Position numbers and translations under genes: made by a program
The notes under the pieces: model-generated
Databases searched by the model: none
What the model was told of the DNA's origin: nothing
What the model saw: only the letters and a program-made list of their open reading frames with translations
Assembly: GCA_011525845.1 (NCBI GenBank)
Contig: WYBP01000015.1
Span: forward strand, 110,723-153,267
Reading direction: 5' to 3'
Length of the DNA: 42,545 nucleotides
Origin: Gemmatimonadaceae bacterium
GTDB taxonomy: Bacteria > Gemmatimonadota > Gemmatimonadetes > Gemmatimonadales > Gemmatimonadaceae
Shown: positions 6,479 to 23,058 of the stretch, piece by piece
How the letters are laid out: every line of letters starts with the position of its first letter
Position numbering within the stretch: position 1 is the stretch's first letter

Positions 6479-7966
6479 ATGGGCTTCCGGTCGCGAGCGG
6501 CCGCAGTCGCACTCCTCCTGCCGATGCAGACGCTCCGGGCGCCGTCGCCGGAGTTCCGCGCGATGCAGCCGGAGCTCTTCGCGACGCCCGGCGCACTGGT
6601 GAACGCCGCCGCCGACATCGATGGCGACGGCGACCTCGACCTCTTCGTCGGCTTCAACGGCGCGCCCAACCGCCTCTACCGGAATGACGGCGGCACGTTC
6701 AAGGAGATCGCGGCCACGGCCGGCGTCGCGGACGCGCGCGCCACCCGGGCCGGCGCCTTCGGCGACTTCGACGGCGACGGCGATGCCGACCTCCTCGTCG
6801 GCTTCGCGCCCGGGCCCGAGCCCGTGCTCCGCCTCTACCGGAACGTCGCCGGACGGTTCGAGGACCACACGCTCGCGGCCGGACTGCGCGTCGACTCCGG
6901 CGCGGTGCGGCAACCCGTCTGGGTGGACGTCGACGCGGACGGCGACCTCGACCTCTTCGTCGCGATGCGCGACCGCGCGAACCTGCTCTTCCGGAACGAC
7001 GCCGGACGGTTCACCGAGGTCGCCGCCGCGCTCGGGCTCGGCGACACGCGCCGAAGCGTCGGCGCCGTCTGGGCGGACCTCGACGCCGACGGAGACCTCG
7101 ACCTGGTCGTCGGCAACATGGACGGCGACGCCAACGGTGTGTTCGTGAACGAGGGCGGCCGCTTCACGGACCGCGCCGGGCGACTTGGGCTCGAGTGGGG
7201 CGGCCGAGCGCCGCGAGAGCCATCGAACGGGACGGTGCGCCCCTGCGTGGCCGACGTCGACGCCGACGGTCGGCTCGACATCATCACGGCGAACTACGGG
7301 ACGCCCGGGCTCTTCCTCGCGCGCGCGGACGGCACGTGGCAGGATGCCGGCGCGGCATGGGGCATCGCGGTCGACCGGCGCTACGACACCTGCGCGCTCG
7401 CCGACTTCGATCACGACGGGCGGCTCGACCTCTACCTCAACGGGACGCTCACGCAGGGGAGGAACTGGCCGGATTTCCTCTACCGGAACAGCGGCGCGCG
7501 CTTCGAGACCGCGATGACCGTCGCCCTCGAGTCGGTGCCGTCGACGCATGGCGCGCTCTGGGCCGACTTCACCGCCGACGGCACGGCCGACCTCGCGCTC
7601 GCGGGACAGGGGCCGCACGCACTCCTCGCCAACCTCCTCCCCGCCGCCACGGCGCACCGCTCACTCCGGCTTCGGATCCTGGACGCCCGTGGACTCGCGA
7701 CCCGAGCGGGCGCCGAGGTGCGCGTCTACGCGGCGGGGACGCGCCGGCTCCTCGCCACGCGACTCGTGGACGCCGGGTCCGGCTACGACGCACAGTCGGA
7801 CGCGCCGGTGCACATCGGGCTGACCACCGCGGAACCGGTGGACGTCGAGGTCACCTGGCCTGCCGCGGGGGAGCGGCAGGTCTCGCGCTGGAGCCGAGTC
7901 CCGGTCGACGGGCGACGGGTGACGGAGCTGCGCCCCCCCTCCGGCGCCGGAGCACAGGGCAGGTAG
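6479..7966 (+). CDS. Exported FG-GAP (VCBS) repeat protein with C-terminal ASPIC/UnbV domain
   Basis: A 495-residue protein. A signal-like N-terminus (MGFRSRAAAVALLLPMQTL) is followed by seven DxDxDGxxD calcium-loop repeats: DIDGDGDLDLF, DFDGDGDADLL, DVDADGDLDLF, DLDADGDLDLV, DVDADGRLDII, DFDHDGRLDLY and the weaker DFTADGTADLA. Seven repeats fit one complete seven-bladed integrin-type propeller. Residues about 400-485 match the ASPIC/UnbV domain (LVDAGSGYDAQSDAPVHIGL, then VTWPAAGERQVSRW). Proteins with this pair of modules are extracellular, related to CRTAC1, and of unclear function, probably adhesion or ligand binding. I chose the ATG at 6479 because it opens the signal sequence and starts just after the preceding stop. 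Confidence 0.85.
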   Translation: MGFRSRAAAVALLLPMQTLRAPSPEFRAMQPELFATPGALVNAAADIDGDGDLDLFVGFNGAPNRLYRNDGGTFKEIAATAGVADARATRAGAFGDFDGDGDADLLVGFAPGPEPVLRLYRNVAGRFEDHTLAAGLRVDSGAVRQPVWVDVDADGDLDLFVAMRDRANLLFRNDAGRFTEVAAALGLGDTRRSVGAVWADLDADGDLDLVVGNMDGDANGVFVNEGGRFTDRAGRLGLEWGGRAPREPSNGTVRPCVADVDADGRLDIITANYGTPGLFLARADGTWQDAGAAWGIAVDRRYDTCALADFDHDGRLDLYLNGTLTQGRNWPDFLYRNSGARFETAMTVALESVPSTHGALWADFTADGTADLALAGQGPHALLANLLPAATAHRSLRLRILDARGLATRAGAEVRVYAAGTRRLLATRLVDAGSGYDAQSDAPVHIGLTTAEPVDVEVTWPAAGERQVSRWSRVPVDGRRVTELRPPSGAGAQGR

Positions 7967-8009
7967 ATTCCCGTACCCTCCCACCCACCCGCCCCCTCCC
8001 GTGATCGTG

Positions 8010-10196
8010 ATGCGACCCTGGTCCGCGCTCCTGCTGCTCGCCCTGGTGGGCGCTGCCCTCCCCGCCCAGTCCACCGCCCGGCGCGAGATCTCCGCCCTCC
8101 GCACGCCGACGCCGATCCGGCTCGATGGCATCCTGGACGAGGAGGTCTGGACCCGCGCCACCGCCGCCACCGGCTTCGTCCAGAGCGAGCCGCGCGAAGG
8201 CGAACCCGCGACGGAGCGCACGGAGGTCTGGGTCGCGTTCGACGCGGAGAACCTCTACATCGCGGCCTTCATGCACGACGCGGCGGCCGCACGCGCGATC
8301 GTGAACGACATCCGGAAGGACTTCCGCGAGGACGACCAGGACGACTTCGAGGTGATCCTCGACACCTTCCGCGACCGGCGCAACGGCTACGTCTTCATCA
8401 CGAACCCCGCCGGCGGGCGCGTCGACCGGCAGATCTCCAACGAGGGACGGGAGATCAACTCGAGCTGGGACGCGATCTGGGACGTGCGCACCGCGCGCCG
8501 CGACGACGGCTGGACCGCGGAGATGGTGATCCCCTTCCGCACGCTCCGGTTCGAGCCGGGCGAGGACCAGCGCTGGGGCATCAACTTCGCCCGCCGCATC
8601 CGGCACAAGAACGAGATCACCTTCTGGTCCCCCGTGCCGCGCGCGTTCAACCTGATGCGCCTCTCCCTCGCCGGCGACGTCGTCGGGCTCGAGATGCCGA
8701 GCGCCGGGCGCGACCTCCGCGTGAAGCCCTACCTGCTCGCCAACACGGTGCGCGACGTCGGCGTGCGCGCGTACGACCAGACGTTCGATGCGGGGCTCGA
8801 CCTCAAGTTCGCCGTGACCCGAGGGCTCACGCTCGACGCCACCGTGCGCCCCGACTTCGCGCAGGTGGAGGCGGACGAGCAGCAGGTGAACCTCACGCAG
8901 TTCGCCCAGTTCTTCCCCGAGAAGCGCGAGGCCTTCCTCGAGAACTCCGGCATCTTCTACGTCGGCGACGCGGCGCGGAACAACCGCGTCTTCGTCCCCG
9001 CCACGCCGGACGACGACAACCTCCTCTTCTTCTCCCGCCGCATCGGCATCCGCGACGACCGTCGCCCGCTCGAGATCGACGCGGGCGCGCGCCTCACCGG
9101 GAACGCCGGTGGCTTCGGGATCGGCCTCATCAACATGCACGTCCGCGGGGACGCCACCACCCCGGACAACAACTACAGCGTGATCCGCCTGCGCCGGAAC
9201 GTCGCGCTCGGCTCCGACGTCGGCGTGCTCCTGATGCAGCGCCAGTCGACCGAGGATGGCGGCGACTACAACCGCGTCGCCGGCGTGGACGCCAACATCC
9301 GCTTCTTCCGTCGGCTCGACTGGAACTCCTACGTCGTCGGCACGCGGACGCCGGGACTCTCCGGCGGGCAGTACGCGGCCCGCACCTCCCTCAACTGGGA
9401 GGGGAACTTCTTCCACGGCAAGGGAGGCGTCCTCTCGCTCGGCGAGGACTTCAACAACGACCTCGGCTTCTACCGGCGCGTGGGCGTGAAGAAGTGGTTC
9501 ACCGACATCGGCATCCGCCCCCGCCCCGAGGTGCTGCGCCGCCACGGCATCCGCGAACTGCACCCGCACATCGTCTGGGACTACTTCACGGACCAGCAGA
9601 ACCACCTCGTCCAGAAGCGGCTGCACACGGGGCAGAGCTTCTTCTTCGAGAACGGCGCGGTGGTGGAGCTCTCGTACAACCCGTCGTTCAACCTCCTCTC
9701 GCGCCCCCTCCGGCTCTCCCCGCAGGCCGACTCGCTCCCCGCGGGCGGGTACGGCTGGAACGAGTGGGGGCTCCTCGTGAACTCGGACCAGAGCCGGATG
9801 TTCGCGCTCAGTACGCGCTACGTCTGGGGCGAGCTCTACAACGGCACGCAGCAGACCATCAACTCCACGCTGACCTACCGGCCGAACTATCGCGTGCGCC
9901 TCAGCGCCGGCGTGCAGCGCACCGCGGGGGACCTCGCACTGGCGGACGGGAAGTTCGTGAACAGCTTCTGGACGACGCGCGCGAACTACTCCTTCTCGCC
10001 CCGCATGTTCATCGATGCGCTCTCGCAGTACGATCCGACGTCCAAGCAGCTCAACGCGAACGTCCGCTTCAATTTCCTGCACCACCCGCTGAGCGACCTC
10101 TTCATCGTGTACAACGACCAGCGCTTCCTCACGCCGGGTGCGCCCGTGGCGGGACGCTCGGTGATCGTCAAGTTCACGCAGATGATGGCGTTCTAG
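8010..10196 (+). CDS. CBM9-like/DUF5916 outer-membrane protein (copy 1)
   Basis: A 728-residue exported protein. It has a signal peptide (MRPWSALLLLALVGAALPAQ), then a CBM9-like domain to about residue 225 (PIRLDGILDEEVWTRATAAT, WVAFDAENLYIAAFMHD, MVIPFRTLRF). The rest is a DUF5916 region rich in alternating aromatic strands, typical of an outer-membrane barrel. Its signature is FAQVEADEQQVNLTQFAQFF followed by PEKREAFLENSGIF. The last residue is Phe, as in many barrel proteins recognised by the Bam machinery. The family is common in Bacteroidota and Gemmatimonadota and often sits with peptidases, but its role is not established. A GTG 9 bases upstream is possible; I prefer the ATG that opens the signal peptide. 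The second copy is at 26436-28673. Confidence 0.85.
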   Translation: MRPWSALLLLALVGAALPAQSTARREISALRTPTPIRLDGILDEEVWTRATAATGFVQSEPREGEPATERTEVWVAFDAENLYIAAFMHDAAAARAIVNDIRKDFREDDQDDFEVILDTFRDRRNGYVFITNPAGGRVDRQISNEGREINSSWDAIWDVRTARRDDGWTAEMVIPFRTLRFEPGEDQRWGINFARRIRHKNEITFWSPVPRAFNLMRLSLAGDVVGLEMPSAGRDLRVKPYLLANTVRDVGVRAYDQTFDAGLDLKFAVTRGLTLDATVRPDFAQVEADEQQVNLTQFAQFFPEKREAFLENSGIFYVGDAARNNRVFVPATPDDDNLLFFSRRIGIRDDRRPLEIDAGARLTGNAGGFGIGLINMHVRGDATTPDNNYSVIRLRRNVALGSDVGVLLMQRQSTEDGGDYNRVAGVDANIRFFRRLDWNSYVVGTRTPGLSGGQYAARTSLNWEGNFFHGKGGVLSLGEDFNNDLGFYRRVGVKKWFTDIGIRPRPEVLRRHGIRELHPHIVWDYFTDQQNHLVQKRLHTGQSFFFENGAVVELSYNPSFNLLSRPLRLSPQADSLPAGGYGWNEWGLLVNSDQSRMFALSTRYVWGELYNGTQQTINSTLTYRPNYRVRLSAGVQRTAGDLALADGKFVNSFWTTRANYSFSPRMFIDALSQYDPTSKQLNANVRFNFLHHPLSDLFIVYNDQRFLTPGAPVAGRSVIVKFTQMMAF

Positions 10197-10203
10197 GAGG
10201 CCG

Positions 10204-11280
10204 ATGCCGGCTGCGCCGGAGGACGAGCACGTCGCGGCGGCGAAGGCCGCCGGCCTGGTGTACGTGACGGACGCGATGCCCGGCATCGCACGCCGTCGCG
10301 CCGGCAAGGGGTTCGCGTACTACACCCCCCGCGGCGCGCGCATCACCGACCCCGCGGCGCGGAAGCGGCTCGCGGCGCTCGCCATCCCCCCAGCGTGGAC
10401 GGACGTCTGGATCTGCCCGGACCCGCGCGGCCACCTCCAGGCGACGGCGCGCGACGCCAAGGACCGGAAGCAGTACCGCTACCACCCGCGCTTCCGCGCC
10501 GAGCGGGACGAGTCGAAGTTCGACCGGATGCTCGCCTTCAGCGCCGCCCTCCCCCGCCTGCGGGAACTCGTGGAGCGCGACCTCATGTCGCCGGGGCTCA
10601 CGCGCCGGAAGCTCCTCGCCACGCTCGTGCGCCTGCTCGACAAGACGCTGATCCGGATCGGGAACGAGGAGTACCTCAAGTCGAACAAGTCCGTCGGGCT
10701 CACCACGATGCGCCGCCGGCACGTGGTGGTGGAGGGGCACACGCTCACCTTCTCCTTCCGCGGCAAGAGCGGCGTGCAGCACGAGATCGCGGTCACGGAC
10801 CAGCGGCTCGCCCGCATCGTGAGGAGCCTGCAGGACCTCCCCGGACAGGAACTCTTCCATTACCTCGACGACGAGGGCCGGCGCCTCACGGTCGACTCGG
10901 GGGATGTGAACGCCTACCTGCAGGAGCTCACCGGGTCCGACGTGACCGCGAAGGACTTCCGCACCTGGAGCGGCACGATGCTCGCCGCGAGCGCCTTGCG
11001 CGAGTTCGGGCCGCCGGCGTCCGCCGCCGAGGCGAAGCGGAACGTGAACCAGGCGCTCGACCGCGTGGCGAAGCGCCTCGGCAACACCCGCGCCGTGGCG
11101 CGGAAGTATTACGTTCATCCGGCGATCGTCGAGGCCTACCACCGCGGCGTCGCCGCTCCCGTCCCGCGCCGCGCGCGGCGGCGTGAGCGTCCCTCGGCCG
11201 CGCTCCGCCGCGACGAGGTCGCCGTGCTCCAGTTCCTGCACGAGGAACTCGAGGACCGTCCGTCATCCAGCCGCCCATGA
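10204..11280 (+). CDS. DNA topoisomerase IB
   Basis: A 358-residue protein of the poxvirus/bacterial topoisomerase IB family, which relaxes supercoils through a transient 3'-phosphotyrosine link. Catalytic residues are visible: Arg151 (RIGNEEY), Lys188 (FRGKSG), Arg253 (DFRTWSGT) and the nucleophile Tyr303 in KYYVHPAIVEAY. The N-terminal domain carries GKGFAYYTPRG and IPPAWTDVWICPDPRGHLQATARDAKDRKQYRYH (binding surface). A basic tail (RRARRRERPSAALRR) lies near the C-terminus. AGGAGG (10195-10200) overlaps the stop of the DUF5916 gene and ends 3 bases before the ATG. The following small membrane protein starts 3 bases after its stop, so these genes are probably cotranscribed. All catalytic residues are present and the length is usual. 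Confidence 0.93.
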   Translation: MPAAPEDEHVAAAKAAGLVYVTDAMPGIARRRAGKGFAYYTPRGARITDPAARKRLAALAIPPAWTDVWICPDPRGHLQATARDAKDRKQYRYHPRFRAERDESKFDRMLAFSAALPRLRELVERDLMSPGLTRRKLLATLVRLLDKTLIRIGNEEYLKSNKSVGLTTMRRRHVVVEGHTLTFSFRGKSGVQHEIAVTDQRLARIVRSLQDLPGQELFHYLDDEGRRLTVDSGDVNAYLQELTGSDVTAKDFRTWSGTMLAASALREFGPPASAAEAKRNVNQALDRVAKRLGNTRAVARKYYVHPAIVEAYHRGVAAPVPRRARRRERPSAALRRDEVAVLQFLHEELEDRPSSSRP

Positions 11281-13484: not shown

Positions 13485-13504
13485 CCTTCCGGAAGGTGTA
13501 GCTT
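13485..13504 (+). promoter_or_regulatory. 12-bp palindrome beside a -10 box, promoter/operator of the membrane-receptor operon
   Basis: CCTTCCGGAAGG (13485-13496) is a perfect palindrome. TAGCTT follows at 13499-13504, a -10-like box with 6 bases between it and the ATG at 13511, which puts transcription start at or next to the start codon. I see no good -35 element. A palindrome in the -35/-10 spacer is where a dimeric regulator would block or twist the promoter. Both roles are inferred. Confidence 0.4.
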
Positions 13505-13510
13505 CGCGGC

Positions 13511-14008
13511 ATGCGTACGTCCCGCTTCCTGCTCACCTGCCTCACCGCCGGCGTCGCCTGGATCGTCGTCGAGGTCACCGGCGGCCTCCTCTTCCTCGCG
13601 CTCGGCGTCCGGCTCTGGCGCTACGAGATCGTGCCACTGTGGTGGGATATCACGTCGCCGGTCGTCTGGTGCTTCGCCGTCGTCTTCATCGTGCCGCTCA
13701 GCGTGGTGTTCGACCGCGCCGTGACCTCGCGGTACGAGGGATTGCGGGCGTGGACCGTGCACTGTCTCTTTCTGATGACGACGGGGACCATCCTCGAGGT
13801 CGTCTTCAACGACCTGATCTTCCGACAACACTTCGGCGGCCCGCTCTACGAGTACCTCGTGCTGCCGACCTTCAACGGATCGGGATCTTGGCTCTCCCCG
13901 CTCTACTACGCGACGCTCCTGATCCATCGACCCGTCTCGGAACGCCTGCTGCGGCCGGAGCCGATGACGGACGCGACGTTCGCGGTCGCACCATCGGTGC
14001 GCGCGTGA
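13511..14008 (+). CDS. Small polytopic membrane protein, unknown family
   Basis: A 165-residue protein with about four membrane helices: residues 7-33, 43-66 (ITSPVVWCFAVVFIVPLSVVF), 79-98 (WTVHCLFLMTTGTILEVVF) and 125-140. An acidic and aromatic motif follows the third helix: E-V-V-F-N-D-L-I-F, then GGPLYEYLVLPTFNGSGSWLSPLYY. Charged residues next to membrane helices and the P-L-Y-E-Y-x-x-x-P pattern suggest an enzyme or ligand-binding protein, not a plain anchor, but I do not recognise the family. The gene appears leaderless. Its stop overlaps the GTG start of the TonB receptor by 4 bases (GTGA), so the two are coupled. Position suggests an inner-membrane partner of the receptor or of the CruF-like proteins downstream. 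Confidence 0.6.
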   Translation: MRTSRFLLTCLTAGVAWIVVEVTGGLLFLALGVRLWRYEIVPLWWDITSPVVWCFAVVFIVPLSVVFDRAVTSRYEGLRAWTVHCLFLMTTGTILEVVFNDLIFRQHFGGPLYEYLVLPTFNGSGSWLSPLYYATLLIHRPVSERLLRPEPMTDATFAVAPSVRA

Positions 14009-16497
14009 GGCGGCACCTCGGATGGGCCGCGACGCTCCTGCTCGCGCTCGGCTGGAGCGGGAGCGCCGCGGCGCAGGGCGGAACGATCACGGGACGGGTG
14101 ACGACGACCGGGGGTGCCGCACCCCTGGCCGGCATCAACGTCTCGGTCGCGAACGCGCGCCCCGCCGTCACCGATGCGGACGGCCGGTACGTCCTCCGGA
14201 ACCTCTCCGCCGGCACCGACACCGTCCGCTTCCGGTGGATCGGCTATGCGCCGCGCGAGCTCGTGGTCTCGCTCGAGGAGGGCGAGCGCCTGACGCTCAA
14301 CGTCGAACTCGAACCGGAGCCCGTGCAGCTCTCGCAGGTGCGCATCTCCGGCGCCTCACGGCAGGTCGAGCGCGTGGTGGACGCGCCGGCCGCCGTCTCG
14401 GTCGTTGCGCCCGAGCGCGTGCGCGAGATGGCGGGCGTCGGCCAGGTGCCCATGCTCGTCGCCGACATGCCCGGGGTACGCGTCGCGCAGAGCGGCGTGA
14501 ACGACTTCAACGTCAACGCGCGCGGGTTCAACACCCCCACCAATCGCCGGCTGCTCGTCCTCGTCGACGGCCGCGACGTCTCCGCGCCCCTCCTCAACAA
14601 CCAGGACTGGGCCGACCTCTCGCTCACCGACCCCGCGACGCGGGTCGAGTTCGTGCGTGGCCCGGGCTCCGCGCTCTACGGCGCGAACGCCTTCTCCGGC
14701 GTCCTCGCCATCACCACGCCCGCCGTGCGCGAGTCGCGCGGCACGTGGGTGGACCTGAGCGGCGGCGAGGTCAGCGCGCTCCGGGCGACCGCCAGCTCAT
14801 CGTGGATCACGGACGACTATCGCTGGGGGTTCCGCGCCGGTGCCGGGTACTCCACGACCCAGACCCCCGACGTCGCGCGCACGAACCTCGGGGATCTCGA
14901 GCGCGAGTACGCGGCGGCGGGCATCCCCGCCGGAGCCGCCCGGATGCCCGCCCCCGGGTACGAGCTCATCCCGCTCCAGGGCCAGACGAAGAGCGGGGTG
15001 CTCGGGTTGCCGGGCGCCGCGAGCGGCACCCCCGATCCGCTCCGCACCTCGTTCGCGAACGCGCGGCTCGACTACTATCCGGCGAACGGGGCGATCGTCA
15101 CCGCCGAGGGCGGCTGGTCGAGGATCGAGAACCCCGTCGCCACGCTCACGGCGGGCCGCTCGCAGACCCTCGAGGCGACCCGCCCGTGGGGAAGGCTCGC
15201 GTGGACCTCCGAGGGCTTCTCGCTCATGGCGTACCACACCGGGCGCACGGGGGAGAACGTCTCCCTCGCCAGCGGGCAGCGCGGCGACGACATCACGTCC
15301 ACCACGCACCTCGAGGGCCAGGTCAACCGGCGGTTCGCGGGCGCGCGCGGGCGCTTCGTGCTCGGCGGCTCGCTCCGCACCGTGATGGTGGACACGAAGG
15401 GGACCCTGCTCTCCCCCGCCGACGACGGCCGCAGCGACCGGTTCTACGGCGCGTTCGGCCAGGTGGAGTACGAACCCTTCGCGCGCTGGAAGGTCATCGC
15501 CGCCGGGCGCGTCGACGAGGGCTCGCTCAACGAGACGAACTTCTCGCCCAAGCTCGGCGTGGTGTACGCGCCGGCGTCCGACCAGGCGGTGCGCCTCACC
15601 TTCAGCCGGGGATACCTGAACCCCTCGGTGCTCGAGCGCTTCATCGCGTTCCCCGCCGGTCCGCCGCTCGACTTCTCGCTGCTCGAGGCGGGGTTGCGCG
15701 CCTCGCCGCTCGGCCCCGCACTCGCCGGCGTGCCGAACGGCGAACTGTTCACCGTCTCGAGCGCGGTGCCGCTGCTCGCGCTCGGGAACGACCAGCTGCG
15801 GTCCTCGAAGGTCAACGGCGTCGAGCTCGGCTACAAGGGACAGTTCGACCGCCTCTTCGTGACGGCGGACGTCTACTACAGCCGGATCAGCGACTTCGCC
15901 TCGGGACTCCTCCCGGGCGCGAACCCGCGCTATGCGCCATGGACGGCGCCGGCCGCGGTGCCGGGCGCGGCGGCCGCGGGGCTCGAGGGCGCCGTCGCCG
16001 CGGCCGTCGGCCCGGGCCTCACCCGCCTCGCGGACGGGAGCACGGCGCTCGTGCTCTCGAGCGGCAACTTCGGCGAGGCGCGCGAGTACGGCGCGGAGCT
16101 CGGCGTCGGCGTGCAGGTGGACCGCGCGCTGCGCTGGGACGCCAACTACACCTACTACGGCTTCGCGATCAACCAGGCCGAGTTCTACGCCGGCGACACC
16201 CTGCTCCCCAACACGCCGCGCCACGCGGTGAACCTCTCCGGCGCGTGGACCGGGGCGCAGGGCGCGCGCGTCCGCCTCGGCTGGCGATGGGAGGATGCGC
16301 ACCGCTGGCACGCCGGCGTCTGGCAGGGCTTCGTCCCGTCGAGCGGGAGCGTGGACCTGAACGCGAGCCTGCCCGCCGGCGAGCGCCTCACCTTCTCCCT
16401 CTCGGCGACGGACCTCCTCGACCAGAAGCGCTACCACCTCTACGGCGGCTCGATCGTCGGACGACGCGTGATCGGCGGCGTCTCGTGGCGGCGGTAG
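14005..16497 (+). CDS. TonB-dependent outer-membrane receptor with carboxypeptidase-regulatory-like N-domain
   Basis: An 830-residue protein starting at GTG 14005, overlapping the previous stop. The signal peptide ends in GSAAAQ. Residues about 24-105 form a carboxypeptidase-D regulatory-like beta domain (GTITGRVTTTGGAAPLAGIN, VTDADGRYVLRNLSAG, RFRWIGYAPRE). A plug domain follows (about 115-240) with DMPGVRVAQSGVNDFNVNARGF, RLLVLVDGRDVS and EFVRGPGSALYGANAFSGVLAITT. The rest is a 22-strand-type barrel ending in a C-terminal SWRR after GGSIVGRRVIGGV. Such receptors import scarce ligands with energy from TonB. The ligand is not readable from the sequence. It lies between an unknown membrane protein and two CruF-like genes, which hints at a hydrophobic ligand (inference). 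Confidence 0.9.
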   Translation: MRRHLGWAATLLLALGWSGSAAAQGGTITGRVTTTGGAAPLAGINVSVANARPAVTDADGRYVLRNLSAGTDTVRFRWIGYAPRELVVSLEEGERLTLNVELEPEPVQLSQVRISGASRQVERVVDAPAAVSVVAPERVREMAGVGQVPMLVADMPGVRVAQSGVNDFNVNARGFNTPTNRRLLVLVDGRDVSAPLLNNQDWADLSLTDPATRVEFVRGPGSALYGANAFSGVLAITTPAVRESRGTWVDLSGGEVSALRATASSSWITDDYRWGFRAGAGYSTTQTPDVARTNLGDLEREYAAAGIPAGAARMPAPGYELIPLQGQTKSGVLGLPGAASGTPDPLRTSFANARLDYYPANGAIVTAEGGWSRIENPVATLTAGRSQTLEATRPWGRLAWTSEGFSLMAYHTGRTGENVSLASGQRGDDITSTTHLEGQVNRRFAGARGRFVLGGSLRTVMVDTKGTLLSPADDGRSDRFYGAFGQVEYEPFARWKVIAAGRVDEGSLNETNFSPKLGVVYAPASDQAVRLTFSRGYLNPSVLERFIAFPAGPPLDFSLLEAGLRASPLGPALAGVPNGELFTVSSAVPLLALGNDQLRSSKVNGVELGYKGQFDRLFVTADVYYSRISDFASGLLPGANPRYAPWTAPAAVPGAAAAGLEGAVAAAVGPGLTRLADGSTALVLSSGNFGEAREYGAELGVGVQVDRALRWDANYTYYGFAINQAEFYAGDTLLPNTPRHAVNLSGAWTGAQGARVRLGWRWEDAHRWHAGVWQGFVPSSGSVDLNASLPAGERLTFSLSATDLLDQKRYHLYGGSIVGRRVIGGVSWRR

Positions 16498-16506
16498 CGT
16501 GACCCC

Positions 16507-16561
16507 GTGGTGAACCCGTGGTGAACCCGTGGTGAACCCGAGGTGAGCCCATGATGAATCC
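16507..16561 (+). repeat. 11-bp tandem repeat running through the ribosome site into a start codon
   Basis: Three exact copies of GTGGTGAACCC (16507-16517, 16518-16528, 16529-16539) are followed by the variants GAGGTGAGCCC (16540-16550) and ATGATGAATCC (16551-16561). A degenerate copy, GCGTGACCCC, may precede them at 16497-16506. The fourth copy supplies the purine-rich GAGGTGA ribosome site and the fifth supplies ATGATG, the start of the next gene. Copy number could vary by slippage. Confidence 0.85.
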
Positions 16562-17540
16562 CCCGCTCTGGATGGTGCTCGGGACGTTGATTCCGACCTT
16601 CGGGTTCGGGCTCTTCTATCTCTGGCGTGCGGTGCGGACCAACCGGTTCGACGCGATCATGTTCCCGCTCGTGGCCGCATACGGGATCTGGATCGAGCAC
16701 GCCACCGTGAAGTCGACCGAGGCGTACGACTACCCGGACATGCTGCTGATGGTCTGGTCCCCCCCGGACTGGATCCCGGTCGCGGTCGGCGTGTCGTGGG
16801 CGATCGTCGTCTACGTCGCGATGCAGGCGACCGACCGCATGGGGATCGCCAAGTGGCAGCGCCCGTTCGTGGACGGGGCGATGGCGGTCATGATCGACCT
16901 CGTGATGGATCCGGTGACCAGCGCCAGCGTGCTGGTCCCGAGCAACAGCACCTCCACCACCTGCATGGCGGTCGAGGGCGATCGCTTCGGCGGCGTGGGC
17001 ATGTGGCTCTGGTGCGTGCCCGAGCAGCACGCATACCTCTGGTACAACGTCCCCTACTCGAACTTCATCGGCTGGTTCCTCGTCGTCTTCGTGGCCTCGG
17101 CGACGATCCGCGCGGGCCGCGCCCTCACGCGCGTGGACGAGCGCCCCCTCGGCGCACAGCTCGCGATCGCCGTCGGCGTGACCCTCGTCGCCTCGGTGCT
17201 GGTCTCGCAGGCGGTCCAGGGGATGATCCGCATCCTCCGCTTCGACCTCATCTCGCCGGCACTGATGTTCTACGCCGTCTGCGCCCTCCCGGTGCTCGTG
17301 CTCGGATGGCAGCTCCGCCGGGTCGAGATCCGGAACCGGTTCGAGTTCGGGTTGATCGCCTTCCCGCTCTTCGTCTTCGTGGTGGAGCCGCTGACGTTCA
17401 TCCTGATGGGGATGGACCGGGCGAACTGGCCCGGCTCGCTGCTGCTCCTGCTCGGCACCGCGCTCTTCGGCGCGCTGCTCTTCGCGCTCCCGTACATCGG
17501 CCACCTGCGACGCGCGCCGACGACCGCCCCCCCGGCGTAA
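16551..17540 (+). CDS. CruF/DUF422-like carotenoid-type membrane protein (paralogue 1)
   Basis: A 329-residue protein with about eight membrane helices. It carries the frame of the carotenoid-synthesis DUF422 family (CruF, carotenoid 1,2-hydratase): E49 in a membrane helix, Y59-x-Y61, a P-D-W-I-P segment (72-76) and SWA, D116-L-V-M-D120-P, G-M-W-L-W and VPYSNFIGW (168-175). The usual GTxTGxPFG loop before Y-x-Y is replaced by ATVKSTEAYDY, so this is a divergent branch. A short insert holds Cys138 and Cys155, 16 residues apart, as in the downstream paralogue. Either ATG of ATGATG (16551 or 16554) fits the GAGGTGA site. It starts 53 bases after the TonB receptor stop and is followed by its paralogue after 3 bases. 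Hydratase activity is not demonstrated. Confidence 0.65.
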   Translation: MMNPPLWMVLGTLIPTFGFGLFYLWRAVRTNRFDAIMFPLVAAYGIWIEHATVKSTEAYDYPDMLLMVWSPPDWIPVAVGVSWAIVVYVAMQATDRMGIAKWQRPFVDGAMAVMIDLVMDPVTSASVLVPSNSTSTTCMAVEGDRFGGVGMWLWCVPEQHAYLWYNVPYSNFIGWFLVVFVASATIRAGRALTRVDERPLGAQLAIAVGVTLVASVLVSQAVQGMIRILRFDLISPALMFYAVCALPVLVLGWQLRRVEIRNRFEFGLIAFPLFVFVVEPLTFILMGMDRANWPGSLLLLLGTALFGALLFALPYIGHLRRAPTTAPPA

Positions 17541-17543
17541 GAC

Positions 17544-18500
17544 GTGCGCTTCACCCTCCTCCAGTCCCTGCTGCTGACCGGCCCCACGCTCGCCTTCGGG
17601 GCCTGGTTCGCGCACCGCGCCCGGCGGGAGTCGCGCACCGCGCTCTTCGCCTTCATCGGCCTCGCGGCGTACGCCTTCTCGCTCGAGCTCGCCGACGTCC
17701 TGACCACGCAGGACTACTCGTACAGCGACCTCGGCCTGATGATCGGGCGCGCGCCCGCGTGGGTGCCGCTCGAGGTCCCGATCTCCTGGGCGGTGATCGT
17801 CACCTGCGCGATGCGCACGAGCGACCGGCTCGCCCTGCCCTGGCGGCTCCGCCCCCTCTTCGACGGGCTGATGGCGCTCTCCCTCGACCTCGTCCTCGAC
17901 CCGATCCTGAGCGCCAGCCGCGCCGTCCCCGCACTCGGCGGCGGGTGCCTGACGGGTGACCAGCCGGCCCTGGGCGGGCTCGGGATGTGGATCTGGTGCC
18001 TCCCGCCCGGCGAGCAGGCGCTCTGGCTCCGTGTCCCGCTCACGAACTTCTTCGGTTGGATCGTGGTGGTCTCCCTGGTCTCGTTCGCGGTGCGGCACGC
18101 CGCGCGATCGCTCGAGGGTTCCAGCCCGTCGTTCGCCCGGACCGCCTGGGTGTTCGCGCGCAACCTGCTCGGCGCGCTGGTCGCGGTGGTCCTCACGCTC
18201 CTCGCGTACCGCGCGCTCGTCACGACCCCGTGGATGGCCTGGGCCGTGCTCGGGCTCGCCGTCGCCGCGGTGGTCCTGGTCCTCGCTCCCGCGATGCGCG
18301 CGGCGCGGCGGCAGAACCCCGTCGACGTCCCGGTCGTGGCATTCCTGCTCTCGATGATCCTGCCCTACGGCGCGCTCTTCTACTGGCGCGGCCAGGGGAC
18401 GGAGGCGGGCCTGCCGATGGCGATGGCCTACGCCGGGGCGATCGGCGTCATCCTCCTCCTCACGGCGTCACCCTACCTGCGCGGCACCCGCGCGCGCTAG
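17544..18500 (+). CDS. CruF/DUF422-like carotenoid-type membrane protein (paralogue 2)
   Basis: A 318-residue polytopic protein starting at GTG 17544. It repeats the landmarks of the gene before it at nearly the same residue numbers: E48, Y58-S-Y60, P-A-W-V-P (71-75), SWA, R-P-L-F-D-G, D115-L-V-L-D119-P, Cys135 and Cys152 (16 residues between), G-M-W-I-W-C, and VPLTNFFGW (164-172). The two are clearly tandem duplicates that have since diverged, most in the C-terminal helices. Having two may mean a heterodimer or two related substrates. The family function (adding water to a carotenoid end group) is the best analogy, but the altered N-terminal loop leaves room for another isoprenoid or lipid substrate. 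It converges on the nucleotide cyclase gene. Confidence 0.63.
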   Translation: MRFTLLQSLLLTGPTLAFGAWFAHRARRESRTALFAFIGLAAYAFSLELADVLTTQDYSYSDLGLMIGRAPAWVPLEVPISWAVIVTCAMRTSDRLALPWRLRPLFDGLMALSLDLVLDPILSASRAVPALGGGCLTGDQPALGGLGMWIWCLPPGEQALWLRVPLTNFFGWIVVVSLVSFAVRHAARSLEGSSPSFARTAWVFARNLLGALVAVVLTLLAYRALVTTPWMAWAVLGLAVAAVVLVLAPAMRAARRQNPVDVPVVAFLLSMILPYGALFYWRGQGTEAGLPMAMAYAGAIGVILLLTASPYLRGTRAR

Positions 18501-18526
18501 GTCTGCGTGAGGCTGGCGCCGGGTGT

Positions 18527-18547
18527 GCGCCGCCGGTCGCGCGGCGC
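18527..18547. terminator. GC-rich hairpin between convergent genes
   Basis: GCGCCGC (18527-18533) and GCGGCGC (18541-18547) pair perfectly around a 7-base loop in the 55-base gap between the CruF-like gene and the cyclase gene. No T tract follows on either strand. Position suggests a terminator, but stems of this kind are common by chance at this GC content. Confidence 0.35.
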
Positions 18548-18555
18548 CGGGCAGG

Positions 18556-20910
18556 TCAGGTCGCGGCCAGCGGCAGCGCGTAGAGCGTCTCCACCGCCTT
18601 CCGGCCCCGGATCGCGACATCGGGATGGCGCACGAAATCCGGCGCGACGTCCCGCCCCCGCTCCCAGGTGGTGGAATCCACGAGCACGCTCGCCGAGCGC
18701 TCGCGCGTGAGGGTCTGCAGCCGCGCGGCCAGGTTGGTCGTGCTCCCGATCGCGGACCAGATGGTGCGGTCCACCGCCTCGATGTTCCCGACGAACGCGA
18801 GCCCGGTGGCGACGCCCACGCCGACCGACATCGGGACGCCGCCCTCGGCCGAGCTCCCCATGGCGGCGACCTCCGTGACGAGGCGCCGCGCCGCGCGCAG
18901 CGCCGCCGTCTCCTTGTGCGCGAGGGGACGCGGCGCGCCGAACACCGCCATCATGCCGTCGCCGTTGAACTCGACCACCACGCCCCCCTCGTCGTTCACG
19001 ATCGCGGACACCGTCTCGGTGTACCGGTTCACGGTCGAGAAGATGTCCGTGGCCTCGCGCCCGTCCGCGAACGCCGTGTAGCCGCGCAGGTCGACGAAGA
19101 GCACCGAGACCTCCCGCTCGCCCGTCTCGAGGTCGTCGCCGAGGGCGATCGCCTCCGCCACCGCGCCGGGCACGTACCGCCGCATCCGCTCCTGCGTCGC
19201 GCGTGCGCGCTCCAGCAGCTCCGCCTCGTCGAACCGGAGCATGTGGCTCGAGAGCGTCTTGGCCACCGCGGTGAGCAGGGTGAGGTCCGTCTTCGTGAAG
19301 ATGTCCCCGGACCGCTTCTCCCCGATGCAGACGAAGGCCTCCAGCGCACCCGCACGCTGGATCGGGAACACCACCTGCGTGCCGAGGTCCGCGAGGATGG
19401 CGGTCGAGAGCGGGTCCGCCTGCCTGATCCCCGTCCGCGGCACGAGCCGCGCCTCCGGGCTCGCGGCCACCCAGCCCACGAGCGACGTCCCGGCGGGGAT
19501 CTGCGGCGGGAGGGCATCACCGCCCGTGAAGACGGGGACGTACACCCGGTCCGCCTCCACGAAGATCACGCAGCTGGTCGGCCGGAGGTTCTCGACGAGT
19601 TCCCCGCCCGTGAGCGCCCAGAGCTCCGCGGCGCGGCGCACCGACGCGAACTTCTCCGGCAGGTCCTTCATGGCCTGCTCGAGCGCGAAGCGCTCCCGGA
19701 AGAACACGCGCTCCACCTGCGGGCGCAGCCGCCGCTCGGTGAAGATGACGATCGCCGCGAGCGCGACGGTGATGGACGAGCGGCCGAGGGTGGGATCCAC
19801 CCCGAGCTGCACGGTGAGTGTCCCGGTCAGGCTCGGCACCAGGAAGAACCCGCCCCCCACCACGACGATCGCGAGCAGGTTGTACGAGACCGTCGCGCCC
19901 AGCAGGCGGTCCACGTCGAAGAGGTCGAACCGCAGCGCCGCGATCAGCACGGCCGCTGGGAACATCGCCAGGGCGATCGACGTGGCGACGTGCGTCCAGA
20001 GGGGGGCGTCCGCGGAACCGGCGTCGCCGAACGCGTAGGCGACCACGGCGATGAGCGCCGACACGTAGACGGCGTAGGCGATCCACTTGATCTTGCGGCG
20101 CCCCACCGGCCCCGAGCGCCGGAAGTTCATCGCCACCACGCTGACGTTCGTCGAGACGAAGAGGAGCACGACGAGCGTCGTCAGGGTGCGCATCGGCTCC
20201 AGCGGGAGCGGGAAGCCGTTCACGCCGGCGAAGATCGGCAGTCCCGAGAGCGCGAAGATCCAGGGCCAGTACCGGTGCACCCCCCGGAGGGAGCCGGCCT
20301 CCTCCGGGAAGGAGAGGAAGGTCAGTACGAAGAGCGGCTGGATGAGGCACGCGATCGGGAAGGCGAACACCAGCATCGCGACCGCGACGGGCGCGGGTCC
20401 CTGCATGAAGCTCGAGTAGAGCAGCGCTTCGACCGCGAGCGCCGAGAACATCAGGCGCGACGAGACGGACGGCCGCGCCCGCACCATCAGGAGGATCGCC
20501 GCGATCCCGAGGACGATGGAGTTGATGAGGTTGGGGAGGTGGCCGCGGGGCGGGCGCCCCGGGATCGACTCCGAGAGCACCATCCGCTCCCCGTCGCGCT
20601 CGACCTCCACCGCGATCGCTCCGGCACGCGCCCAAGCCTCGTCCGAGAGCGCGACGAGGAAGGTCGGCTGCCCCTTCCCCTCAAGGTCCCAGCGGCCGAC
20701 CCGGACCACCCGGTCCCCGGGTCGGAAGACCGTCTCCTCGCGGTGGTGCTCGGTCGCGTACCCCCGCACGACCGGGAACGCTCCCCCGGCCTCCCGCTCC
20801 ACGTAGACGGCGCGCGGGATGGGCGCACCCCACCCCGCGACCTGCAGCCCGTTGGTCGCGACCCAGAGCGCGATGAAGATTCCCAGCAGGATCCGGTCTC
20901 GGAGGGACAC
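18556..20910 (-). CDS. Membrane-bound class III adenylate/guanylate cyclase with GAF domain
   Basis: A protein of about 784 residues. Order: one N-terminal helix (RILLGIFIALWVATNGLQVAG), a periplasmic stretch with a PDZ-like piece (FRPGDRVVRVGRWDLEGK), about seven or more membrane helices to residue 365, a GAF-like domain (about 410-560) and a class III cyclase domain. The catalytic metal residues are Asp607 (FVDLRGYTAF) and Asp651 (NGDGMMAVFGAP). The transition-state pair is Asn726 and Arg730 (TTNLAARL). The two base-selecting positions are Glu647 and Ser719, so the nucleotide used is uncertain. I chose the GTG at 20910, since upstream codons run into the promoter of the divergent gene and look non-coding; ATGs at 21027 and 21048 would overlap that gene. 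It probably makes cAMP or cGMP in response to a membrane or ligand signal. Confidence 0.85.
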   Translation of the reverse strand: MSLRDRILLGIFIALWVATNGLQVAGWGAPIPRAVYVEREAGGAFPVVRGYATEHHREETVFRPGDRVVRVGRWDLEGKGQPTFLVALSDEAWARAGAIAVEVERDGERMVLSESIPGRPPRGHLPNLINSIVLGIAAILLMVRARPSVSSRLMFSALAVEALLYSSFMQGPAPVAVAMLVFAFPIACLIQPLFVLTFLSFPEEAGSLRGVHRYWPWIFALSGLPIFAGVNGFPLPLEPMRTLTTLVVLLFVSTNVSVVAMNFRRSGPVGRRKIKWIAYAVYVSALIAVVAYAFGDAGSADAPLWTHVATSIALAMFPAAVLIAALRFDLFDVDRLLGATVSYNLLAIVVVGGGFFLVPSLTGTLTVQLGVDPTLGRSSITVALAAIVIFTERRLRPQVERVFFRERFALEQAMKDLPEKFASVRRAAELWALTGGELVENLRPTSCVIFVEADRVYVPVFTGGDALPPQIPAGTSLVGWVAASPEARLVPRTGIRQADPLSTAILADLGTQVVFPIQRAGALEAFVCIGEKRSGDIFTKTDLTLLTAVAKTLSSHMLRFDEAELLERARATQERMRRYVPGAVAEAIALGDDLETGEREVSVLFVDLRGYTAFADGREATDIFSTVNRYTETVSAIVNDEGGVVVEFNGDGMMAVFGAPRPLAHKETAALRAARRLVTEVAAMGSSAEGGVPMSVGVGVATGLAFVGNIEAVDRTIWSAIGSTTNLAARLQTLTRERSASVLVDSTTWERGRDVAPDFVRHPDVAIRGRKAVETLYALPLAAT

Positions 20911-20931
20911 GCGTCGCGGGGCGGGTTGGGC

Positions 20932-20960
20932 TTGCGGCAAGGGCCGAAAGGCGGATAATA
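20932..20960. promoter_or_regulatory. Promoter of the lycopene-cyclase-like gene, possibly bidirectional
   Basis: On the plus strand TTGCGG (20932-20937) and GATAAT (20954-20959) are 16 bases apart. The -10 ends 6 bases before the ATG at 20966, so the message would be leaderless. The same AT-rich octamer reads TATTAT on the minus strand (20960-20955), a good -10 for the cyclase gene, with a 38-base or so leader to the GTG at 20910. I see no clear minus-strand -35. Confidence 0.55.
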
Positions 20961-20965
20961 GCACG

Positions 20966-21982
20966 ATGCGGCGACACGAGCACAGCAGGAGCCACGTCAA
21001 GCAGATCCTCGGCCTGCTCGCGCTCATCGGCGCACCGGCCGCGCTCACGCTCTGGGCCGTGCAGCCCCGCCCGGGCCCGGGATACGACGCCCACGACCCG
21101 ACGCCCTACGGGTACACCATCAGCCTCACGCTCTTCGCGATCCCCGTCGCGGTGATACTCGCCCAGCTCGTCTGGCGCGCGAAGACCCCGGTGCACCGGC
21201 ACGCGCTGATCGCCGCCTCCGCCGTCATGGCACTGGTCGGCTTCGTGCTCGACCTCTTCTTCGGCGAGTCCTTCTTCGCGTTCGAGAACCGCGGCGCCAC
21301 GCTCGAGTGGCACCTCCCGGCCTGGAGCTTCGCGGAGTGGCGCTGGGTGCCCAGCTACCTGCCGATCGAGGAGTTCGCGTTCTACATCCTCGGCGGGCTC
21401 TTCCTGCTCACGCTCTACGTCTGGATCGAGGAACGCTGGCTCCGCGACGACGAGCTGGAGGCGCGCATCGAGCACGCGCGCAACCTGCCGCGGCTGGTCC
21501 ACGTCCACTGGACCGCGCTCCTCCTCTGGCTCGCGGCGATCGCGGCCGGGTTCCTGTACAAGCGGTTCGTCGTGCAGGAGCCGGGGATCCCCGGCTACTT
21601 CCTCTTCATCATGATCATCGGCGTGCTGCCGACGGTGCTCTTCCTGCACGCCGTGGAGCGCTTCGTGAACTGGCGCGCCTTCGCGCAGGCCTTCGCCATC
21701 CTCCTCCTCGTCGAGCTCCTCTGGGAGGCCACGCTCGGCGTCCCCTTCGACTGGTGGAACTACAAGGAGGCGCAGATGCTCGGGATCCGCGTCGCCGCCT
21801 GGTCCGACCTGCCGATCGAGGCGATCCTGCTCTGGGTCGTGGTGGCCTGGGACTGCATCGTGGTCTACGAGATCTGCCGGGTCTTCCTCCACATGGACGG
21901 CCACGAGCATCCGCGCAGCGTGCGGGAACGACTGTTCGGCACGGCCCCCGCGTCCTCTCCCGCCGCTCCGCCGGCGCCTTAG
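20966..21982 (+). CDS. Lycopene-cyclase-fold-like polytopic membrane protein
   Basis: A 338-residue protein with about eight membrane helices. Two segments repeat the hallmark of the CrtYc/CrtYd and CarR-type lycopene cyclases, in which a tryptophan/aromatic stretch and a L-P-x-E motif lead into a helix: EWRWVPSYLPIEEFAFYI (about 124-141) and FDWWNYKEAQMLGI then WSDLPIEAILLW (about 261-290), the latter ending WDCIVVYE. Two such halves in one chain match the fused CrtYcd layout, except that the second half has E-A where the first has E-E. The family cyclises the ends of lycopene; the overall length and a long N-terminal region are unlike standard enzymes, so the true substrate may be another isoprenoid. 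It is divergent from the cyclase gene and its stop overlaps the stop of the next, convergent gene. Confidence 0.5.
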   Translation: MRRHEHSRSHVKQILGLLALIGAPAALTLWAVQPRPGPGYDAHDPTPYGYTISLTLFAIPVAVILAQLVWRAKTPVHRHALIAASAVMALVGFVLDLFFGESFFAFENRGATLEWHLPAWSFAEWRWVPSYLPIEEFAFYILGGLFLLTLYVWIEERWLRDDELEARIEHARNLPRLVHVHWTALLLWLAAIAAGFLYKRFVVQEPGIPGYFLFIMIIGVLPTVLFLHAVERFVNWRAFAQAFAILLLVELLWEATLGVPFDWWNYKEAQMLGIRVAAWSDLPIEAILLWVVVAWDCIVVYEICRVFLHMDGHEHPRSVRERLFGTAPASSPAAPPAP

Positions 21983-23058
21983 GGCACCAGCGGCCGGCGG
22001 AAGATGGAGTCGTAGGTCGCCAGCGCGCGCTTCGCCGCGAAGGTCGCGGTCACCAGCCCGTTCGACGCGAAGAGCGGGAGCACCGAGCCCGGCGGGAGCG
22101 GCTGGTACGCGGCGAGGTCGAGGTCGGTGTAGGTCAGCTGGAAGAGCCGCACCGCCTTGGCCGAGTCGAGCAGGCGCTCGTGCCGCCGCCAGTAGCGCGC
22201 CTGGGTCTGTGGCGAGGAGGAGACCGTGCCCACCGCGGCCGAGGTCCAGCCGCCCTCCACCACGAGGACCGGCAGCGTGCGCCCGCCCGCGAGCCGCGTG
22301 TAGTAGTCGAGCGGGATCTGGTCGGGGTCGGCGAAGGTGAAGTAGGGATACGACGAGATCGCCAGCACCTCCGTGAACGGGAAGTCGCGGAAGTCGGCCT
22401 CGACACCCACGTACGGCGCCGGCGCGGGTCCCCAGGCCACGTCGGCCTGCACGCTCGCGTAGAGCGCGGGGAGCGTCCCGCCCATCGCGCGCACGAGGGA
22501 GGCGGCGTCGTTCGCCATCGCCACCATCGCGGCGTAGACCGCCGGCGGCGAGAGCGCGCGGATCAGGTTCGACTCGGCGATCAGCCCCAGGTACTCGGGG
22601 CGCAGCTGGTCGACCACGGCCACCACGTACTGTCGGTAGACGGCCTGCACCGCCGGCTCCGTGACGCTCCGCCCCAGAGCCACGAGCTCCGGCGACTCGG
22701 CGGCGCGGTCGAGTCCGTCCCCCGGGTCGATGGTGATCGTCAGCGGGAATCCCCGTGCGCGGTACAGGTTCGCCAGCGGCACGTCCACGGTGCGGACGTG
22801 CTCCGCCGCCGTCACGCCGCCGAGGACGGCCGCGTAGGGCACCGCGAGGTGCATGATCGCCGCGTCCGCGCGCGGCGCCCACGCGTTCACGGTGGCGACT
22901 CCGCTCGCGCTCGTCGGGAGCGGCGGAACCACCGAGAATCCCATGCGGAAGGTCCGGGGGCGGAGCTCCGCGTCCGGCCGCGGACCCTCCGCCCCATCGC
23001 CACACGCGTTCGCGCTGCCCATGAGGACGACGAGCGCGAGCTGCGACAGCCGCCGCAC
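21979..23058 (-). CDS. Lipoprotein with a possible GH-A-clan glycosidase core
   Basis: A 359-residue protein. The signal peptide ends near a lipobox-like ANAC (Cys19), so it is probably lipid-anchored. The rest alternates short strands and helices like a TIM barrel: SVVPPLP, APRADAAIMHLAVPYAA, FPLTITIDPGDG, YLGLIAESNLI, VLAISSYPYF, PVLVVEGGW, VRLFQLTYTDLD. Glu162 in AESN and Glu268 in VVEGGW sit after strands 4 and 7, where clan GH-A glycosidases place the acid/base and the nucleophile. I cannot assign a substrate, and this could be a non-catalytic relative. It starts 4 bases after the stop of the BNR gene upstream and belongs to that operon. Its TAA overlaps the TAG of the convergent gene. 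Confidence 0.6.
   Translation of the reverse strand: MRRLSQLALVVLMGSANACGDGAEGPRPDAELRPRTFRMGFSVVPPLPTSASGVATVNAWAPRADAAIMHLAVPYAAVLGGVTAAEHVRTVDVPLANLYRARGFPLTITIDPGDGLDRAAESPELVALGRSVTEPAVQAVYRQYVVAVVDQLRPEYLGLIAESNLIRALSPPAVYAAMVAMANDAASLVRAMGGTLPALYASVQADVAWGPAPAPYVGVEADFRDFPFTEVLAISSYPYFTFADPDQIPLDYYTRLAGGRTLPVLVVEGGWTSAAVGTVSSSPQTQARYWRRHERLLDSAKAVRLFQLTYTDLDLAAYQPLPPGSVLPLFASNGLVTATFAAKRALATYDSIFRRPLVP

Follow-up and report, generated by a model that had tools for sequence, protein, structure and literature searches.

A stretch of 42,545 nucleotides from a Gemmatimonadaceae genome (hereafter the window) encodes, between positions 13511 and 21982, divergent relatives of carotenoid end-group enzymes side by side with a TonB-dependent receptor and a class III nucleotide cyclase, and the host genome lacks CrtI. 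Our tentative reading is that this locus is a TonB-linked membrane module that handles a hydrophobic isoprenoid not supplied by the cell's own carotenoid pathway and is coupled to cyclic-nucleotide signalling. Each of the protein families is known; judged by sequence comparison, the novelty would lie in the undescribed, recurrent genomic setting in which these relatives are found. A search of the open-access literature turned up no earlier account of this combination.

Gene calls and family scans recovered every gene named in a preliminary description of this DNA. Five lie on the plus strand, encoding a small hydrophobic protein (13511-14008), the TonB-dependent receptor (14005-16497), two CruF-like membrane proteins, A (16551-17540) and B (17544-18500), and a two-half lycopene-cyclase-like (lyc-like) membrane protein (20966-21982). 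The cyclase lies on the minus strand (18556-20910), converging with the CruF-like pair and diverging from the lyc-like gene, from which it is separated by 55 bases. A minus-strand ORF adjoining the locus (21979-23058) is missing from the loci of the relatives and was not counted as part of the module. Elsewhere in the window, a 358-residue ORF at 10204-11280, near a glyoxalase-like gene, resembled a type IB DNA topoisomerase by eye and is unrelated to the locus.

The TonB-dependent receptor carries a signal peptide followed by CarboxypepD_reg, plug, and barrel regions. A Pfam scan matched PF00593 (107 bits), PF07715, and PF13620, and the presence of both plug and barrel domains places the protein among TonB-dependent receptors. 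Orthologues scored 472-953 bits in five Gemmatimonadota genomes, where the next-best TonB gene reached about 146 bits, and in four of the five the orthologue was located at the lyc-like locus. Two further orthologues (412-438 bits) occurred in Thermoanaerobaculia, on contig C474 of genome G406 (L124) and contig C79 of G412 (L123). Both were away from the lyc-like locus, and no isoprenoid genes were found near either.

The receptor gene begins at a GTG that overlaps the end of the small ORF by four bases (GTGA, 14005-14008), as had been described. Judged from this overlap, the 165-residue small protein is translationally coupled to the receptor. However, its proposed membership in the module did not survive comparison: Pfam, NCBIfam, and profile searches gave no match to the protein, and about 50 related loci contained no homologue. 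It is probably an accessory. Separately, shared ancestry of the small protein, the CruF-like and lyc-like proteins, and a DUF6989 membrane protein encoded at three lyc-like loci (L027, L036, and L054) found no convincing support in hhalign profile comparison (probability <5%).

Both CruF-like proteins exceeded the PF04240 cut-off of 25 bits (A, 35.5; B, 46.2), which bears out their description as adjacent CruF/DUF422-like genes. They share 34% identity and their genes are separated by 3 bases. Neither matched the CruF equivalog models (TIGR03460, NF041333, and NF045693) in NCBIfam at an E value of 0.1; the homologue at L060 did match them, far under the cut-offs. In a phylogenetic tree, the locus CruF-like genes formed a clade separate from the CrtI-adjacent CruF genes of G039, G182, and G396 (split support 100/99). 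G182 carries one gene of each kind, in different clades. Variant arrangements were also seen. At L036, a single 662-residue protein (7903-9891) fuses two CruF-like domains and adjoins both the DUF6989 gene and an FAD protein with a weak match to FAD-type lycopene cyclases. In the Thermoanaerobaculia loci L051 (6333-8671) and L060 (14926-17215), the neighbours of a divergent CruF-like gene are an FMN reductase and a PF04240 gene of canonical type, which scores about 125 bits.

The lyc-like protein most likely starts at the ATG at 20966, about where its homologues begin; the upstream ATG at 20819 enters the cyclase. The window protein fell below the cut-offs of both PF18916 (16.8 versus 27 bits) and TIGR03462 (21.2 versus 39.4 bits). 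Its relatives in L036, L042, and myxobacteria exceeded the PF18916 cut-off, and the family profile aligned over 236 columns with the myxobacterial set that passes this model (hhalign E value 3e-7). The two halves of the family also aligned with each other (E value 3e-6), and each contains an invariant P-x-E motif alongside other invariant acidic positions. Together, the passing relatives, the profile alignment, and the aligned halves establish homology to lycopene cyclase, as the preliminary description had surmised from motifs.

Structure prediction yielded AlphaFold models of moderate confidence for the lyc-like (eight predicted helices; pLDDT 75.5, pTM 0.79) and CruF-like (pLDDT 72.6, pTM 0.77) proteins, and PDB searches by Foldseek and by sequence gave no significant match for either. 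Mycobacterial Insig (4xu4) was among the top weak VIA-align matches of both models (Z 6.2 and 4.5), both scores lying below the level meaningful for helical bundles. The family also includes other architectures. In L046 (6138-8123) and L048 (4536-6554), the lyc-like domain is fused to an acetoacetate-decarboxylase-like (ADC-like) domain, and the fusion gene adjoins an HpnE-like amine oxidase and a kinase-AAA-GAF-histidine kinase protein. In myxobacteria (L068 and L070-L074; e.g. L071, 8680-12156), two tandem lyc-like genes are followed by a PAS histidine kinase, another conserved arrangement built around this family.

The cyclase ORF spans 18556-21048, with its likely start at 20910. The protein scored 46.9 bits against PF00211 (cut-off 21.9), and its metal and transition-state (Asn/Arg) motifs are intact. 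PDZ-like, seven-transmembrane, and GAF parts were assigned by eye. The purine-specificity positions hold Glu (in VVEFNGDG) and Ser, constant in four homologues (the window, L010, L011, and L067). Adenylate cyclases usually have Lys and Asp there, and the window protein might be a guanylate cyclase.

Within Gemmatimonadota, these genes are rare and keep their arrangement. Of 249 genomes searched in the phylum, four had CruF-like A (one weakly), and the lyc-like gene turned up in 6 of 395. Genomes G115 and G182, the latter of the same genus as the window genome, carry TonB receptor, CrtC-like, CruF-like (two copies in G115, one in G182), cyclase, and lyc-like genes, the shared ones in the order and orientation of the window. 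Identity to the window proteins was 51-53% for the lyc-like protein, 54-55% for the receptor, and within about 50-55% for the cyclase. The CrtC-like protein just exceeds the PF07143 cut-off, and its gene is absent from the whole window genome. The window also differs from these two loci in lacking a Ser/Thr kinase gene beside the receptor, with the orphan small-protein gene upstream instead. The fragmented contigs of G374 hold a partial set (CruF-like, cyclase, and lyc-like), with the receptor orthologue on another contig next to the kinase, as in G115 and G182.

The joint occurrence of the genes, proposed at first from a single sequence, thus extends to relatives and also to other phyla. Scanning 84,980 species genomes for the lyc-like family revealed 46 loci in about ten phyla, nearly all metagenome-assembled (Gemmatimonadota, Acidobacteriota, Nitrospinota, Myxococcota, Verrucomicrobiota, Pseudomonadota, Fibrobacterota, Planctomycetota, Spirochaetota, Chloroflexota, and others). 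A CruF-family gene adjoined the lyc-like gene in 10 of the 16 genomes having any PF04240 gene, with 0.09 expected (the window, L010, L011, L028, L036, L042, L051, L060, L062, and L067). On the lyc-like tree, this neighbour occurs at no fewer than four separate positions and requires at least four changes, a pattern that inheritance from one recent ancestral locus would not produce. TonB genes adjoined in 11 of 15 genomes tested against 0.6 expected, an expectation somewhat underestimated because only TonB genes similar to that of the window were counted. Single neighbour assignments may be wrong, since genes were called with a simple codon-model script.

The cyclase was enriched as well. Class III cyclases adjoined the lyc-like gene in 11 of 30 host genomes (the window, L010, L011, L027, L028, L051, L055, L058, L060, L064, and L067), whereas 0.65 were expected from PF00211 match numbers and genome sizes in these genomes (P about 5e-12). 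With near relatives merged, the comparison was 7 versus 0.6 (P about 1e-6). These results argue that the cyclase, initially treated as incidental, belongs to the module and is among its most conserved parts. Signalling proteins of unrelated build lie beside lyc-like genes, including PDZ-7TM-GAF, AAA-TPR, and response-regulator cyclases and a kinase-GAF-histidine kinase. Other neighbours included an MpaB/rubber-oxygenase-domain protein (L027) and, in Myxococcota and others, an amine oxidase related to HpnE and carotene desaturases together with an ADC-like protein. Many loci in Acidobacteriaceae and Verrucomicrobiota had no partner at all. Overall, the initial interpretation is partly supported. 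It retained both of its family links and came through the neighbourhood comparison that might have refuted it, and it lost the incidental cyclase and the small membrane protein as a component.

Genes for an ordinary carotenoid pathway were missing from the host. The preliminary description had seen no phytoene synthase or desaturase nearby, and this holds genome-wide. The window genome is nearly complete (3.58 Mb; completeness 99.8%) and contains no CrtI, its three partial matches being unrelated flavoproteins. Its sole PF00494 gene, on another contig, matched best as a squalene synthase, below the cut-off, so that the CrtB and CrtI pair of a carotenoid biosynthesis locus was not found. Among the ten genomes with adjacent lyc-like and CruF genes, CrtI exceeded its cut-off in G182 only; such absence is strong evidence for the window genome and weak in several hosts represented by incomplete assemblies. 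CrtI-like genes of G406 and G412 (157-168 bits; cut-off 238) suggest that desaturation of some kind is possible there. Rhodopsins, which would point to retinal supply, were not found in the 30 host genomes, an observation of little weight because control genomes were equally silent. The lack of CrtI, the squalene-synthase-like PF00494 gene, and the separate CruF clade set this locus apart from ordinary carotenoid loci.

Isoprene chains are the shared target of CruF, lycopene cyclase, CrtC, and rubber oxygenase, which act on them within or at the membrane by protonation, hydration, cyclisation, or cleavage. The presence of a TonB receptor with isoprene-active families in a cell without CrtI is most simply read as handling of a hydrophobic isoprenoid, taken from the environment or drawn from a pool other than carotenoids, with a tie to a cyclic-nucleotide signal. 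Likewise, the CrtC-like, MpaB/rubber-oxygenase, and amine oxidase genes at lyc-like loci suggest partners that also work on isoprenoids or similar chains. We infer from this gene content that the receptor would move a hydrophobic compound over the outer membrane, most simply inward. At the inner membrane, the CruF-like (hydratase family) and lyc-like (proton-driven cyclase family) proteins would act on isoprene ends by hydration, cyclisation, or binding, with a CrtC-like hydratase assisting them in the sister loci. The adjacent cyclase would make a cyclic nucleotide, either as a readout of the process or as a means of controlling it. We know of no enzyme or transport activity for any member of the module. 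Several observations count against the module reading, including the sub-threshold lyc-like scores, the lack of a CruF equivalog match, the missing CrtC-like gene, the partnerless lyc-like loci, and the distant TonB orthologues of Thermoanaerobaculia. Nor did the analysis reveal an isoprenoid carrier or an inner-membrane transporter.

In a more specific version, bacteria that make no carotenoids would import an external isoprenoid by way of TonB, modify it using proteins related to CruF, lycopene cyclase, and CrtC, and convert its presence into a cyclic-nucleotide signal. This is a speculative proposal that we consider unlikely. If true, it would describe a terpenoid-sensing and scavenging system common to uncultured members of several phyla.

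Somewhat doubtful, and the best of the alternatives, is that the cell builds an isoprenoid of a kind not yet known from its own pool (squalene, quinone, or a polyprenyl precursor), which the lyc-like and CruF-like proteins tailor and the TonB receptor retrieves or displays. The squalene-synthase-like gene of the host is consistent with this, and the ADC-like and amine oxidase genes at other lyc-like loci, with two ADC/lyc-like fusions, look like a biosynthetic pathway. However, the locus itself showed neither a prenyltransferase nor a terpene synthase or squalene cyclase, and the squalene-synthase-like gene is on another contig.

The recurrence of unrelated signalling proteins beside lyc-like genes, including the myxobacterial PAS histidine kinase, would also fit a sensory system in which the lyc-like and CruF-like proteins are non-catalytic isoprenoid-binding receptors steering the nucleotide cyclase. 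We regard this as improbable, because both lyc-like halves keep P-x-E and further acidic positions without variation, as acid catalysis would predict, and because sister loci encode relatives of CrtC, MpaB, and amine oxidases, all of them enzyme families.

The family names, and a CrtI gene over the cut-off in 12 of the 30 host genomes, could suggest that these genes are a dispersed piece of a normal carotenoid pathway and act on carotenoids made elsewhere in the genome. This is very unlikely given a nearly complete window genome without CrtI and the coexistence in G182 of CrtI-adjacent and locus CruF genes from different clades. Chance proximity without common function, conceivable in genomes rich in TonB and signalling genes, is scarcely credible against the cyclase, CruF, and TonB enrichments and the recurrence in separate lyc-like clades.

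Relatives of lycopene cyclase and CruF are normally annotated as carotenoid genes. Their linkage to each other, and to TonB receptors and cyclases, in genomes without CrtI means that this labelling can be misleading. Should the linkage prove functional, the tentatively favoured TonB-linked module would give bacteria a new route to isoprenoid use or sensing, and the clade-specific families of CruF-like and lyc-like proteins would be defined candidate enzymes.

Several known systems resemble parts of this locus. The best NCBIfam match of the TonB protein was TOL_0244, a receptor induced by a C28 alkane (PMC6304351). This recalls the long-chain alkane receptors (TOL_0244 and OmpS of Alcanivorax dieselolei) and their putative hydrophobic ligands, but at 137 bits against a cut-off of 645 the window protein is not a member, and the match offers the module reading a weak lead. 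Likeness to the CrtC carotenoid 1,2-hydratase and Diels-Alderase lipocalin-like family (PF07143 and PF24137) is confined to the sister loci of G115 and G182, while the window genome has no member. With the CruF carotenoid hydratase, the window pair shares a Pfam family and a multi-helix membrane build, but differs in matching no equivalog, standing apart from CrtI in a separate clade, and occurring in a host without CrtI. The cyclase agrees with class III nucleotide cyclases (PF00211) in catalytic motifs and score, and departs from adenylate cyclases in its Glu and Ser and in having isoprenoid-type enzymes as genome neighbours. Finally, the lyc-like protein (about 330 residues) shares with CarR/CrtYcd-type lycopene cyclases (PF18916 and TIGR03462) a homologous second half, a two-half build, and one P-x-E motif per half, while scoring below both cut-offs. 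Whereas those cyclases accompany CrtI and CrtB, the lyc-like family is tied to nucleotide cyclases and TonB receptors.
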